A stretch of 35,995 nucleotides of DNA from Candidatus Parcubacteria bacterium (GTDB lineage Bacteria; Patescibacteriota; Patescibacteriia; UBA1558; GWA2-36-10): NCBI GenBank assembly GCA_002869235.1, contig PKTI01000049.1:1937-37931 (forward strand), written 5' to 3'. Made by a program: the position numbers and the translations under genes. The notes beneath the pieces are model-generated. The model worked only from the letters and a program-made list of their open reading frames with translations. It was not told where the DNA came from and ran no database searches. This document shows, piece after piece, positions 18,965 to 22,038 of the stretch. Numbering within the stretch: position 1 is the first letter of the stretch; each line of letters opens with the position of its first letter.

Positions 18965-19282
18965 TTATGCTGTTATTTTGTCGATCTTGATTTCAGCCAA
19001 TTGCTGACGGTGTCCGTATTGAACTGAGTATCTAGTTTTATTCTTGTACTTCAAAACATCGACTTTCTTATCCTTAAAATTTTTGAGCAAAGTAGCTTCT
19101 ACTTTGGCATTAGCCACATATGGCTTACCAACAGTTACATTGTCTTTGTCATCAATTATCAACAATACCTTATCAAAAACCACCTTCTTACCTTCTTCGG
19201 CTTTGGGCAATTTTTCTACCTTCAAGGTATCACCTTGAGCTACTTGATATTGTTTTCCACCAGTTTTTATTACTGCTTTCAT
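18965..19282 (-). CDS. rplU: 50S ribosomal protein L21
   Basis: 105-aa ribosomal protein that binds 23S rRNA. The start MKAVIKTGGKQYQVAQGD at 19282 is the conserved L21 N-terminus; a frame extending to 19318 would run into the promoter region. The C-terminal part RYSVQYGHRQQLAEIKID matches the conserved basic L21 motif (GHRQ). Usually rplU is followed by rpmA (L27); here it is alone, ending at the convergent terminator. Promoter TTGACA-17-TAAAAT at 19309-19337; short leader without SD. Confidence 0.96.
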   Translation of the reverse strand: MKAVIKTGGKQYQVAQGDTLKVEKLPKAEEGKKVVFDKVLLIIDDKDNVTVGKPYVANAKVEATLLKNFKDKKVDVLKYKNKTRYSVQYGHRQQLAEIKIDKITA

Positions 19283-19308
19283 AATTTTACTTAATTTAAA
19301 ACAATATG

Positions 19309-19337
19309 ATTTTAACAAAAAACAAACAAAGTGTCAA
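19309..19337 (-). promoter_or_regulatory. Promoter of rplU
   Basis: Minus strand: TTGACA (19332-19337), 17 nt, TAAAAT (19309-19314). Confidence 0.8.
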
Positions 19338-19552: not shown

Positions 19553-20215
19553 ATGGATCGCAATCCGCAGAGCTATCGTCAGGACGAGATGAAGGTCATC
19601 TTCGGAGTGTTCAACTTCGAGGGACAGCAGGGGCCCGAGGCCTTCCTCGGCAAGGCCATCAACGGCCTGCCCGGCATGTCCATCCGTCCCGCCAACGACT
19701 CCCCCATCAACATCGACTTCGGCTACCAGGCCGTCAGCATGGCTATCCGGCCGGAGTGGACCCGCATCTACGCGCGGGCCATCACCGACATGGCCTACAT
19801 CAAGGCCGTCATCACCGCTCTCCAGCGGCAGCAGGAGATGATCCAGCAGGAGAAGGCCGATCCGGTCCCGGCGATGATGAACGCCGCCAGGATCCTGCCG
19901 ATCCTGGACTTCCGGTGGAACATCAAGGGCGGCCACATGACCGTCAACGCCAACTGGGGCGCCGGTCTGCGCGACAGCCAGGGTCACCTGAGCAACGGCA
20001 TGCCGGTCTTCGCCCACAAGGACGACCCCGTCAAGACGGCGGGCTTCCACCTGGTCGAGATCGACATCGCGCCCAGCATGGGCTACCTGTTCGCGAGGCC
20101 CTGCCGCAACCAGCGCCTGCTGAGCGTGGCCATCGACAACCTGAGCGACCAGCTCGGACGCGTCGTCCAGGCCGGACTGGAGCAGCCCTCCAACGACCAG
20201 GCCGCCGAGGCCTGA
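19553..20215 (+). CDS. GC-rich orphan protein, 220 aa, probably acquired
   Basis: I do not recognise this family. Composition is the striking feature: most third positions are G or C (codons such as GAC, GTC, ATC, GGC, CTG, GCC), while every flanking gene is AT-rich. Because of that bias other frames and the reverse strand are also open, but this frame has the ATG, a well-placed SD (GGAGG, spacer 7 nt) and a protein-like composition. No signal peptide or TM helix. It starts MDRNPQSYRQDEMKVIFGVF, has a helical mid-part ending in QRQQEMIQQEKADP (about 90-104), then beta-like stretches (LDFRWNIKGGHMTVNANW), and no Cys until residue 183 or so. Complete unit: promoter, leader, gene, terminator. 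A cytosolic protein of foreign origin is the most I can infer. Confidence 0.75.
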   Translation: MDRNPQSYRQDEMKVIFGVFNFEGQQGPEAFLGKAINGLPGMSIRPANDSPINIDFGYQAVSMAIRPEWTRIYARAITDMAYIKAVITALQRQQEMIQQEKADPVPAMMNAARILPILDFRWNIKGGHMTVNANWGAGLRDSQGHLSNGMPVFAHKDDPVKTAGFHLVEIDIAPSMGYLFARPCRNQRLLSVAIDNLSDQLGRVVQAGLEQPSNDQAAEA

Positions 20216-20233
20216 CCCTCCTTGAACCACTGA

Positions 20234-20287
20234 CTATCCTTTTTGGATAGCACCACCCCCGGACCACCAGGCCCGGGGGATTTTTTT
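20234..20287 (+). terminator. Double hairpin terminator of the GC-rich gene
   Basis: First hairpin CTATCC-ttttt-GGATAG (20234-20250), then CCCCCGG (20256-20262) with CCGGGGG (20273-20279) followed by A and seven T. Confidence 0.88.
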
Positions 20288-20294
20288 ATCCAAC

Positions 20295-20322
20295 AAAAAA
20301 AGACCTATCAAGATGATAAGTC
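20295..20322 (-). terminator. Intrinsic terminator of tRNA-Glu
   Basis: Minus strand: GACTTATCA, TCT loop, TGATAGGTC (20302-20322), then seven T (plus-strand A-run 20295-20301), 5 nt past the tRNA CCA. Confidence 0.85.
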
Positions 20323-20327
20323 ACTTT

Positions 20328-20402
20328 TGGTGACCCTACGGGGAATCGAACCCCGGTTACCAGGATGAGAACCTGGTGTCCTAACCACTAGACGATAGGG
20401 CC
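20328..20402 (-). tRNA. tRNA-Glu (CTC), CCA encoded
   Basis: 75 nt on minus: acceptor GGCCCTA/TAGGGTC (one G-T pair), D-arm GTC/GAC, anticodon stem CCAGG/CCTGG with loop TTCTCAT (anticodon CTC), T-arm CGGGG-TTCGATT-CCCCG, discriminator A, CCA. Its first 23 nt are repeated about 280 bp upstream, beyond the GIY-YIG gene. Confidence 0.96.
20380..20402 (-). repeat. Direct repeat copy 1 (5' 23 nt of tRNA-Glu)
   Basis: Plus strand CCTAACCA (20380-20387) plus CTAGACGATAGGGCC (20388-20402), inside the intact tRNA. The same 23 nt occur as copy 2 at 20662-20722, split by a palindrome. Similarity continues past it: ATGAT beside TTGAT. Confidence 0.9.
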
Positions 20403-20642
20403 ATGATTAAATAAATATTTTAATTTTTTTCTACCAACACAAGATTTCCAATATTTTTCTCTTATTCTGGCTTCTCTTATATTATCAATATTTTCTATAA
20501 TAAAACATCTAAATTTACCAAAATATTTTGTTGATTTAACGTGCTGATCTTTATGCTTTTTAATTCTTTCCCTTATATCATTTGTAAAACCAATATAAGT
20601 CTTATCCCCTGTTTCGGAAATAAGTAAATAAATACTATCCAT
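20388..20642 (-). CDS. GIY-YIG nuclease, ending inside tRNA-Glu
   Basis: 84-aa single-domain GIY-YIG (URI-type) nuclease. It has SIYLL and TYIGFT as the GIY and YIG strands (about residues 3-7 and 14-19), an Arg/His helix NDIRERIKKH with the catalytic-type Arg, and the Glu-bearing helix NIREARIREKYWKS. ATG 20642 gives the normal family start; a longer frame to 20696 would run into a palindrome. The last four codons (GPIV) and the TAG stop lie within the first 15 nt of mature tRNA-Glu, so RNase P processing would strip the stop codon from the mRNA. The gene is bounded by direct repeats of the tRNA 5' end, suggesting a small mobile element. There is no evidence for an intron. Confidence 0.85.
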   Translation of the reverse strand: MDSIYLLISETGDKTYIGFTNDIRERIKKHKDQHVKSTKYFGKFRCFIIENIDNIREARIREKYWKSCVGRKKLKYLFNHGPIV

Positions 20643-20661
20643 AATCACTTTTCTTCTTTTA

Positions 20662-20722
20662 CCTAACCACCCGCCTCGACTCGCGAAGCTTGTCAACGCG
20701 AGGCGGGCTAGACGATAGGGCC
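20662..20722 (-). repeat. Direct repeat copy 2 (split tRNA-Glu 5' fragment)
   Basis: CCTAACCA (20662-20669), a 38-bp palindrome, then CTAGACGATAGGGCC (20708-20722). The two blocks rejoin to exactly the 23 nt of copy 1. As a tRNA it is only a 5' fragment covering the acceptor strand and part of the D-arm. Confidence 0.88.
20670..20707. repeat. 38-bp palindromic insertion in the tRNA-Glu fragment
   Basis: CCCGCCTCG (20670-20678) pairs perfectly with CGAGGCGGG (20699-20707) around a 20-nt core; an alternative register pairs CTCGCG with CGCGAG. It is far more GC-rich than its surroundings and interrupts copy 2 without visible target duplication, as a repeated palindromic element would. Confidence 0.75.
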
Positions 20723-20769
20723 TTGATAAACGTATATATTTCTACCAAATTTTTGGCTCTTTGTCTAGC

Positions 20770-22038
20770 CTACTTGGATACTGGCCCAACCAACAAATCA
20801 TCAGCCAACCAAGGTTTGGCCATTATTTCATAAACCACCTGCTCCATTTTTGCTCCTCTAGAACCTTTGATCAATACAATATCGTCTGATTTTAATCTAC
20901 CTTGCAAAAATACACCTGCTTCCATGGTATAAGGAAAATGGTATATCTTGTCCTCGCTCATACCAGCCTCCTTAGCTCCTCTGGCAATATCACGAGACCT
21001 TTCCCCTACTACAAACAAGTATTCTATACCTAACTCAAACAGCTTTTTACCTACGGCCCTATGAGCTGTTTCTGAAACTTTACCCAATTCAAGCATATCT
21101 CCAAAAACAGCAATACGTCTTCCCTTTGTAGGTATTTGTGCCAAAATCTCCAAAGCAGCCTTGGAAGACTGTGGAGAAGAATTATAAGTATCGTCAATTA
21201 TATAACTACCTTTTACGCCCAAAATAAGATTTGTCCTGCCTCTAGCAGTTCTATATTTTGCCAAAGCTTCTCCTACATCAACTAAGTTCATGCCCATAGA
21301 CAAAGCAACTGCAGCGGCCGTGGCAGCAGCTTGAGCGTGTTGCCAGCCCAAAACAGTAGGCAAAAACATTGGTACCTCTGCACCATTGTAATGCAATTTG
21401 AAGCTAGTGCCATACTCACCACCTCTTTGAGTAATTTTTATATTTGAAATTCTGACTTCAGCATCCTCTGATTGGCCAAAAGTTTTGAGTTTGCTTTTGC
21501 ACTTTTCAATAGCTGGAGCCAAGTTTGTATCATCGCGGTTGATAATAGCCCAATCATCTTTGTCTAGCTTACCCAAAATACTAGTTTTTTCTTTTACTAT
21601 ATTTTCTATACTGCCAAAAAATTCTATATGACTATGACCAATAGCTGTCAAAACTGCAATGTCGGGCTTGGCAATTGAAGTCAAATATTTGATGTCCCCC
21701 CTCTTGTCTGCACCCATTTCCAAAATTAAAACTTCAGGATAGTCCTTGTCTTTGATAAGAAGTATTTTGAAAATATACCAAAATATATATATCCAACGGA
21801 AAATATTGCGTCCACCAGATTTTCTGATACGCAAAACAGTCAAGGGAAGACCTATTTCATTATTATAATTTTTGATATTACGACGAGCTCTATATTTTGA
21901 TTTTAGTACCGAAAAAATAGCTTCTTTGGCAGAAGTCTTGCCCACACTACCAGTAATAGCTACTATTTTTGGCTTATATTTCCTAATGACCAAAATAGCT
22001 AAAACCTTTAAAATTGGGTGTAATATCTTTCTCATCAC
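20770..22038 (-). CDS. murF: UDP-MurNAc-tripeptide--D-Ala-D-Ala ligase (MurF-like)
   Basis: Mur ligase of 422 aa that adds D-Ala-D-Ala to the peptidoglycan precursor in the cytoplasm. It shows the ATP-binding loop TGSVGKTSAKE (about 29-39), LEMGADKRGDI (the MurF-type substrate and metal segment), the central-domain GHSHIEFFGS, DDTYNSSPQS (the conserved DxYN motif) and a C-terminal domain with FGDMLELG and VLIKGSRG. Residues about 1-20 before the P-loop are short and hydrophobic, so the usual MurF N-terminal UDP-binding domain seems trimmed. The start overlaps the stop of the penicillin-binding protein gene by 4 nt (ATGA), a tight operon link. Confidence 0.92.
   Translation of the reverse strand: MMRKILHPILKVLAILVIRKYKPKIVAITGSVGKTSAKEAIFSVLKSKYRARRNIKNYNNEIGLPLTVLRIRKSGGRNIFRWIYIFWYIFKILLIKDKDYPEVLILEMGADKRGDIKYLTSIAKPDIAVLTAIGHSHIEFFGSIENIVKEKTSILGKLDKDDWAIINRDDTNLAPAIEKCKSKLKTFGQSEDAEVRISNIKITQRGGEYGTSFKLHYNGAEVPMFLPTVLGWQHAQAAATAAAVALSMGMNLVDVGEALAKYRTARGRTNLILGVKGSYIIDDTYNSSPQSSKAALEILAQIPTKGRRIAVFGDMLELGKVSETAHRAVGKKLFELGIEYLFVVGERSRDIARGAKEAGMSEDKIYHFPYTMEAGVFLQGRLKSDDIVLIKGSRGAKMEQVVYEIMAKPWLADDLLVGPVSK

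Follow-up and report, generated by a model that had tools for sequence, protein, structure and literature searches.

A GIY-YIG nuclease gene that ends inside tRNA-Glu(CTC) as the probable cargo of a small mobile element leaving its target tRNA intact

Integrase-borne islands are known to insert in a tRNA gene and to restore that gene. The mobile ORFs of fungal mitochondria, as described in PMC3630166, are endonuclease ORFs located in a gene that is kept whole by a duplicate end, while the native end persists as a remnant; the hosts are atp6 in Allomyces and Glomus and also atp9, cox2 and nad3, and the endonuclease in Glomus atp9 belongs to the GIY-YIG family. In phage T4, SegB is a free-standing GIY-YIG gene between phage tRNA genes, with a tRNA intergenic region as its listed target (PMC2988022). 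I-TevI is described as having a separate DNA-binding part and as residing in a group I intron (PMC10448857, PMC2988022). In CPR bacteria, endonuclease-coding insertions in rRNA genes are mainly intron-like with LAGLIDADG enzymes and a few with GIY-YIG enzymes, and the word tRNA has no occurrence in the main text of that report (PMC11270868). A full-text literature search, covering titles, abstract starts and few subscription papers, returned no description of tRNA-rebuilding GIY-YIG elements in bacteria.

Judged by the description in PMC3630166, the fungal mobile ORFs are the closest precedent for the locus presented here, which displays the same geometry with a tRNA gene in the place of the protein gene. 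The fungal hosts are mitochondrial protein genes and the inserted end is there diverged or foreign, whereas the bacterial elements occupy tRNA genes, occur as 5′ and 3′ types and carry a rebuilt part that mostly matches the adjacent remnant. T4 SegB is alike in being a free-standing GIY-YIG gene aimed at a tRNA region, but it belongs to a phage, its target is intergenic and its description in PMC2988022 does not mention rebuilding of a tRNA. The rRNA-gene insertions of PMC11270868 share the host radiation and the coding of endonucleases within RNA genes. Compared with an integrase island, the element here is only about 320 bp long, with one nuclease gene and no integrase.

The window, by which we mean the whole stretch of 35,995 nucleotides of Candidatus Parcubacteria DNA that was analysed, contains the following features around its tRNA-Glu(CTC) gene.

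20770 to 22038, minus strand: murF, the gene upstream of the insertion (TIGR01143, 319.9 bits)
20739 to 20767, minus strand: promoter-like pair located 5′ of the remnant, TAGACA-17 nt-TAGAAA, read by eye
20708 to 20722, minus strand: truncated second copy (the remnant) of the tRNA-Glu 5′ end, nt 1-15, 15/15 identical
20670 to 20707, minus strand: GC-rich palindrome of 38 nt interrupting the remnant at tRNA nt 15/16
20662 to 20669, minus strand: probable continuation of the remnant after the palindrome, TGGTTAGG, corresponding to tRNA nt 16-23
20388 to 20642, minus strand: stand-alone GIY-YIG nuclease gene of 84 aa, ATG at 20642-20640 and TAG at 20390-20388
20388 to 20402, minus strand: overlap of gene and tRNA, four codons (GPIV) and TAG forming tRNA nt 1-15
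20328 to 20402, minus strand: intact tRNA-Glu(CTC) (Rfam, 64.4 bits)
20302 to 20322, minus strand: terminator-like hairpin directly 3′ of tRNA-Glu

The nuclease ORF ends with GGC CCT ATC GTC TAG at 20402-20388, its TAG being nt 13-15 of the tRNA. An earlier note on this DNA had placed the last four codons and the stop in tRNA nt 1-15 on the same strand, and this reading was exact, also in its coordinates. The second tRNA 5′ copy at 20708-20722 had not been reported there. The 15-mer of tRNA nt 1-15 gave 2 matches (expected 0.00), 320 bp apart on the same strand. The order of the element is truncated tRNA 5′ end, palindrome, nuclease gene and intact tRNA, and the GIY-YIG gene is the sole gene identified between remnant and tRNA. 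Whether TGGTTAGG continues the remnant is uncertain; it is short and resembles the 5′ UTR seen in other GIY-YIG genes. In the window, Rfam models matched three tRNAs and one L10 leader and no intron, the downstream tRNA being complete; neither of the tRNAs other than tRNA-Glu had a remnant next to it. A second GIY-YIG gene of the same genome has the same arrangement at tRNA-Ser(TGA) (L005).

No terminator-like hairpin was found between the nuclease gene and the tRNA. By eye, the promoter-like pair occupies the place held by TTGACA-17 nt-TAAAAA at the empty site of a relative; a sigma-70 consensus scan of 20220-20850 gave no promoters and did not report this pair. A tmRNA was found in the genome. 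Between an ORF at 18965-19318, which we take to be L21-like, and tRNA-Glu lies an ORF of 220 aa (19553-20215, plus strand) with 63-67% GC in a region of about 30-40% GC; it is without match in Pfam, NCBIfam and PHROGs and may be foreign.

The region 20643-20722 folds with -26.6 kcal/mol (z -1.46), and other Glu-type elements have a similar palindrome at about this position. Palindromes of this kind are not exclusive to the elements, as only 4 of 20 fetched CCTGYCTGCCGRCAGGCAGG sites were at a GIY-YIG/tRNA element; there are few sites of this motif per Flavobacteriia genome. A stem of at least 7 at the remnant break was present in 23/64 cases compared to 14/64 in the control. This test is weakly positive, and the palindrome is therefore described here without a claim of function. 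A TTGGTAGAAA repeat near the window tRNA was accounted for by a conserved protein motif (GRKK).

The protein matched PF01541 with 52.8 bits (cut-off 22.6). R26 and E62, presumably the equivalents of R27 and E75 of I-TevI, were invariant in 22/22 aligned sequences and align with the positions at which the structures 1ln0 and 1mk0 differ from each other, 1mk0 carrying E75A in its title; the catalytic-position Arg and Glu are thus in place. An AlphaFold2 model reached a mean pLDDT of 91.3, the least confident end being the tRNA-encoded residues 81-84 (pLDDT 59). The top structure matches of the model were I-TevI 1ln0 and 1mk0 (prob 1.00, TM 0.63, E 0.004-0.006, none below 0.001), which places the fold in the GIY-YIG superfamily, with the I-TevI catalytic domain and UPF0213 as the nearest folds and sequences. 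The window protein differs from I-TevI, as that enzyme is described, in having 84 aa only and in residing where no intron was found. Carriage of the element on a phage or plasmid found no support, the phage, plasmid and viral contig sets giving no match.

A tblastn search with murF against 30 tRNA-Glu loci revealed seven loci in other genomes that have tRNA-Glu(CTC) directly downstream of murF and lack a nuclease gene. Two further empty CTC sites were present in the same-genus genomes G001 and G002, giving nine relatives with an empty site. The spacer between murF and the tRNA was 46 nt in two of the seven, while in the window murF is separated from the remnant by 47 nt and from the intact tRNA by 367 nt. 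Two others of the seven have longer spacers of 180 and 100 nt; since both hold palindromes by eye, and the shorter one also a short tRNA-like scrap, these may be scars and not never-occupied sites. Occupancy within the genus is reciprocal: the genome of the window (G000) has its CTC site occupied and its TTC site empty, whereas in G001 the CTC site is empty and the TTC site occupied, the latter locus being the same DNA as L167. Presence and absence at orthologous sites, as expected of a free-standing homing endonuclease gene, was thus observed, with the window occupied and nine relatives empty.

The tRNA-Glu(CTC) of the window (20328-20402) differs from its two same-genus orthologues at the same locus in 11/75 positions and from that of another genus in 1/75 (L340, L341 and L138 compared), a pattern as if the body of the tRNA had been replaced. 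We also noticed that in L147 (G018), a locus without a nuclease gene, murF ends inside tRNA-Glu(CTC) at nt 13-15, the tRNA supplying its last codons and stop.

A PF01541 search of the window's genome and 34 relatives provided 136 stand-alone genes, among the matches listed, that were read (G000:C58, L002, starts at contig base 1 and was not counted); nine without enough flank were dropped. A tRNA was assigned to the 3′ side if it was on the same strand and started -90 to +150 nt from the stop codon, and to the 5′ side if it was on the same strand and within 200 nt upstream only. Among these listed matches, 73 of the 127 genes adjoined a tRNA, which was at the 3′ side in 55 and exclusively at the 5′ side in the other 18; gene and tRNA always shared the strand, with 0 cases on the opposite strand. 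A remnant of the cognate tRNA 5′ end (score of at least 12) was located upstream of the gene in 27/55, compared to 1.4% of 4695 decoys, i.e. comparisons with other tRNAs; the other 28/55 among the matches listed had no detectable remnant.

A second set of 80 named loci was obtained by scanning genome contigs with Glu-type protein motifs only. Here 75/80 adjoined a tRNA, 59 with the tRNA at the 3′ side and 16 at the 5′ side only, again with 0 opposite, and remnants were found in 54/59 (decoys 0.67% of 2242). The loci are not independent, because many share a single target: 45 of the 59 are at Leu(CAA). Five loci lacked a tRNA at either side (L173, L191, L185, L225 and L228); by eye, the first three have a tRNA 3′ remnant at their end and L225 is cut off by the contig edge just past a remnant, and L228 is without a stop in the locus. 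The titles of the named loci include Bacteroidota, Moraniibacteriota, Komeiliibacteriota, Omnitrophota, Planctomycetota and WOR-3. A Rhodobacteraceae bin falls within the Flavobacteriia clade and may be misbinned. A phylum-wide sample consisted of 70 loci (30 given, 20 by rank and the last 20 listed), three of which were dropped; 18/67 GIY-YIG genes were at a tRNA, 8 with the tRNA downstream, 10 with it upstream and 0 opposite, and remnants were present in 3/8 and 4/10 of these, respectively.

The elements also occur in mirror image. Of the 33 genes whose tRNA is on the 5′ side alone, 16 are followed by a duplicate of the tRNA 3′ end (score of at least 14; decoys 0.8% of 1881), and 14 of these 16 copies end precisely at the tRNA 3′ end. 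L168 and L169 are the same records as L115 and L132 and were left out of the counts of mirror types, leaders, stem lengths and stop positions. Copying of the tRNA promoter together with the tRNA was rejected as a rule, as the exact leader match had a median of 2 nt (n = 64); the longer matches seen in L073, L105, L183 and L195 resemble tandem copies or vestiges of earlier units, and those of L008 and L108 (12-13 nt) fall outside this account. Tandem copies of the whole unit were found in L073, L183, L173 and L191.

Several other arrangements were noted. Palindrome-looped tRNA 5′ remnants directly upstream of an intact tRNA, with the nuclease gene absent, occur in L004 (1285-1368), L126, L133, L141, L148 and L161 and are either deletion scars or non-autonomous units. 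In G017, two consecutive GIY-YIG genes from different parts of the tree (L018 and L051) precede tRNA-Asn, with a tRNA-Asn remnant between them. Nuclease genes broken by internal stops are those of L170, L197 and L199 and, among the relatives, L046, L061, L069, L112 and L126; several of them still adjoin a tRNA or a remnant, which is the decay that selfish genes would be expected to undergo.

A tree of 207 proteins was made with FastTree from 82 columns, leaving out genes with internal stops or out of range (three named loci and one without a stop, and five relatives). The target isoacceptor changed 62 times on this tree, compared to a shuffled mean of 95.1 and minimum of 92 (n = 146), and with the Leu(CAA) block removed 60 times compared to a mean of 81.5 and minimum of 77 (n = 97). 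For the relatives alone, the target changed 46 times against 61.4, whereas the genome of origin displayed no clustering (63 against 63.4). The Glu-type rows formed one clade (8 rows, 6 distinct genes, local support 99) that takes in the two isoacceptors, whose 5′ half is shared; L119, another Glu row (at tRNA-Glu(CTC)), is placed elsewhere on the tree. In a clade of 31 rows no gene had a tRNA. Together with the 18/67 of the phylum-wide sample, this makes the association with tRNA a property of lineages and not of the fold.

The nuclease gene is in our judgement likely to be the cargo of a mobile element of roughly 320 bp in tRNA-Glu(CTC), spread most likely by intronless homing, and such elements are interpreted as selfish nuclease elements whose insertion into a tRNA gene leaves the tRNA intact. 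The course of events may be depicted as follows: The GIY-YIG nuclease would cut a tRNA gene lacking the element, the lineage of the nuclease determining which tRNA gene that is, and the element would be inserted at the cut gene when the break is repaired from a copy that bears it. After insertion, the original promoter would be followed by a truncated tRNA 5′ end, and a complete tRNA would stand at the opposite side of the element, so that the host would keep its tRNA. With the rebuilt 5′ end placed directly after the nuclease frame, the frame would run into the tRNA and borrow its first in-frame stop. The intact tRNA of an element-bearing host should remain a target, since it holds any target within its own sequence.

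The main rival to homing is a transposition-like step, or recombination between repeats, that duplicates the tRNA sequence of the host, the GIY-YIG protein nicking or cutting without homing copied from a template. It draws its strength from the Leu(CAA) loci. The tRNA acceptor strand had seven variants in the 45 loci of Flavobacteriia type, and remnant nt 1-9 were identical to the tRNA of the same locus in 36/45. For the 41 loci that had 8 or 9 matches, remnant and tRNA of the same locus agree at 364/369 positions, compared to a mean of 302.6 and a maximum of 328 upon permutation, and a D-loop variant was matched by the remnant in 33/35. As the remnant tracks the tRNA of its own genome, it is either young or kept equal by conversion. 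The tracking fits duplication of host sequence or gene conversion, and plain homing from a diverged donor would not be predicted from these alignments to give it. That the duplication usually starts at tRNA nt 1, with the little leader identity given above, is likewise in favour of this rival. On the other hand, the unit has no transposase or integrase, a given nuclease lineage retains its target from one candidate phylum to another, as would be expected if the enzyme cuts at a specific sequence, and gene conversion after homing would give the same tracking. A transposition-like origin is regarded as possible but rather doubtful, and homing stays the preferred reading.

The earlier note proposed that maturation of the tRNA competes with the nuclease message. 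RNase P cuts at the tRNA 5′ end, and it follows that, on a transcript of gene and tRNA, the cut would leave the nuclease message without a stop, which is a fair inference carrying no sign of conservation. The one-transcript part of the proposal agrees with the anatomy: gene and tRNA share the strand, a terminator-like hairpin follows the tRNA only and a promoter-like pair lies upstream, so that co-transcription appears plausible from the layout of the locus. An evolved switch, in which RNase P removes the stop so that tRNA maturation represses the nuclease, would in addition accord with the exact overlap and with the tmRNA of this genome. The C-terminus comparison suggested in the note revealed that the tRNA-encoded tail is not a one-off, as a sister gene in G001 has the same GPIV* ending inside tRNA-Glu(TTC), and the stop was wholly within the downstream tRNA in 26 of 113 genes of the 5′ type. 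Recurring positions were a TAG at nt 8-10 in Asn, Lys, Phe, Thr and Arg, a TAG at nt 13-15 in Glu and Ser(GGA), and, for Ser(TGA), Arg(CCT) and Met, stops within the anticodon or next to it. In the remaining 87/113, however, the overlap is absent. Among the seven distinct Glu-type genes (that of the window and L167, L168, L169, L170, L171 and L172, of which L170 has an internal stop), only two stop inside the tRNA and five stop 4-9 nt before it; an earlier end of the frame in relatives, named in the note as contrary to its idea, was thus in part found. The murF of a relative ending at the same tRNA nucleotides and the poor modelling of the tail also speak against evolved control, which we regard as improbable. 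Because the overlap varies even among Glu-type elements, it looks like a by-product of the junction and not a conserved regulatory device, and we conclude that it follows from where the rebuilt tRNA starts.

Slightly less probable still is that remnant and palindrome form a cis-acting leader of a domesticated gene whose protein serves the host. The remnants do stay near-identical to the tRNA and the palindrome recurs at class-specific places within them, but presence at orthologous sites is patchy, some copies have internal stops and the Flavobacteriia palindrome is mostly located away from such elements. An ancient tandem duplication of the tRNA with decay of one copy and the nuclease gene as a bystander, of which the nuclease-free pairs of remnant and intact tRNA beside other tRNAs are reminiscent, is very improbable in view of the strand rule without opposite-strand cases (the count for the relatives being among the matches listed), the location of remnant and intact tRNA on opposite sides of the gene, the repeated tandem units that contain the nuclease gene and the reciprocal occupancy inside a genus.

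We find it somewhat probable that these genes represent a cross-phylum class of minimal selfish GIY-YIG nucleases. Its members would be single-domain proteins of about 85 residues, dedicated by lineage to one or a few tRNA genes, which insert within the tRNA gene, from its 5′ or 3′ side, rebuild it without splicing or integrase and from time to time renew or exchange parts of these essential genes.

Annotators are thereby warned that such a gene may have its stop and C-terminus within a tRNA and that adjacent truncated tRNAs are marks of insertion. If true, a nuclease that cuts a tRNA gene and has it repaired with the nuclease's gene would be efficient as a selfish element, because tRNA genes are essential and conserved, and also a force on tRNA evolution. 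It would offer a system of intronless homing on bacterial chromosomes that is testable in cultured strains such as Flavobacteriia, and many short GIY-YIG genes, both of Bacteroidota and of the reduced Patescibacteria genomes, would gain a function.
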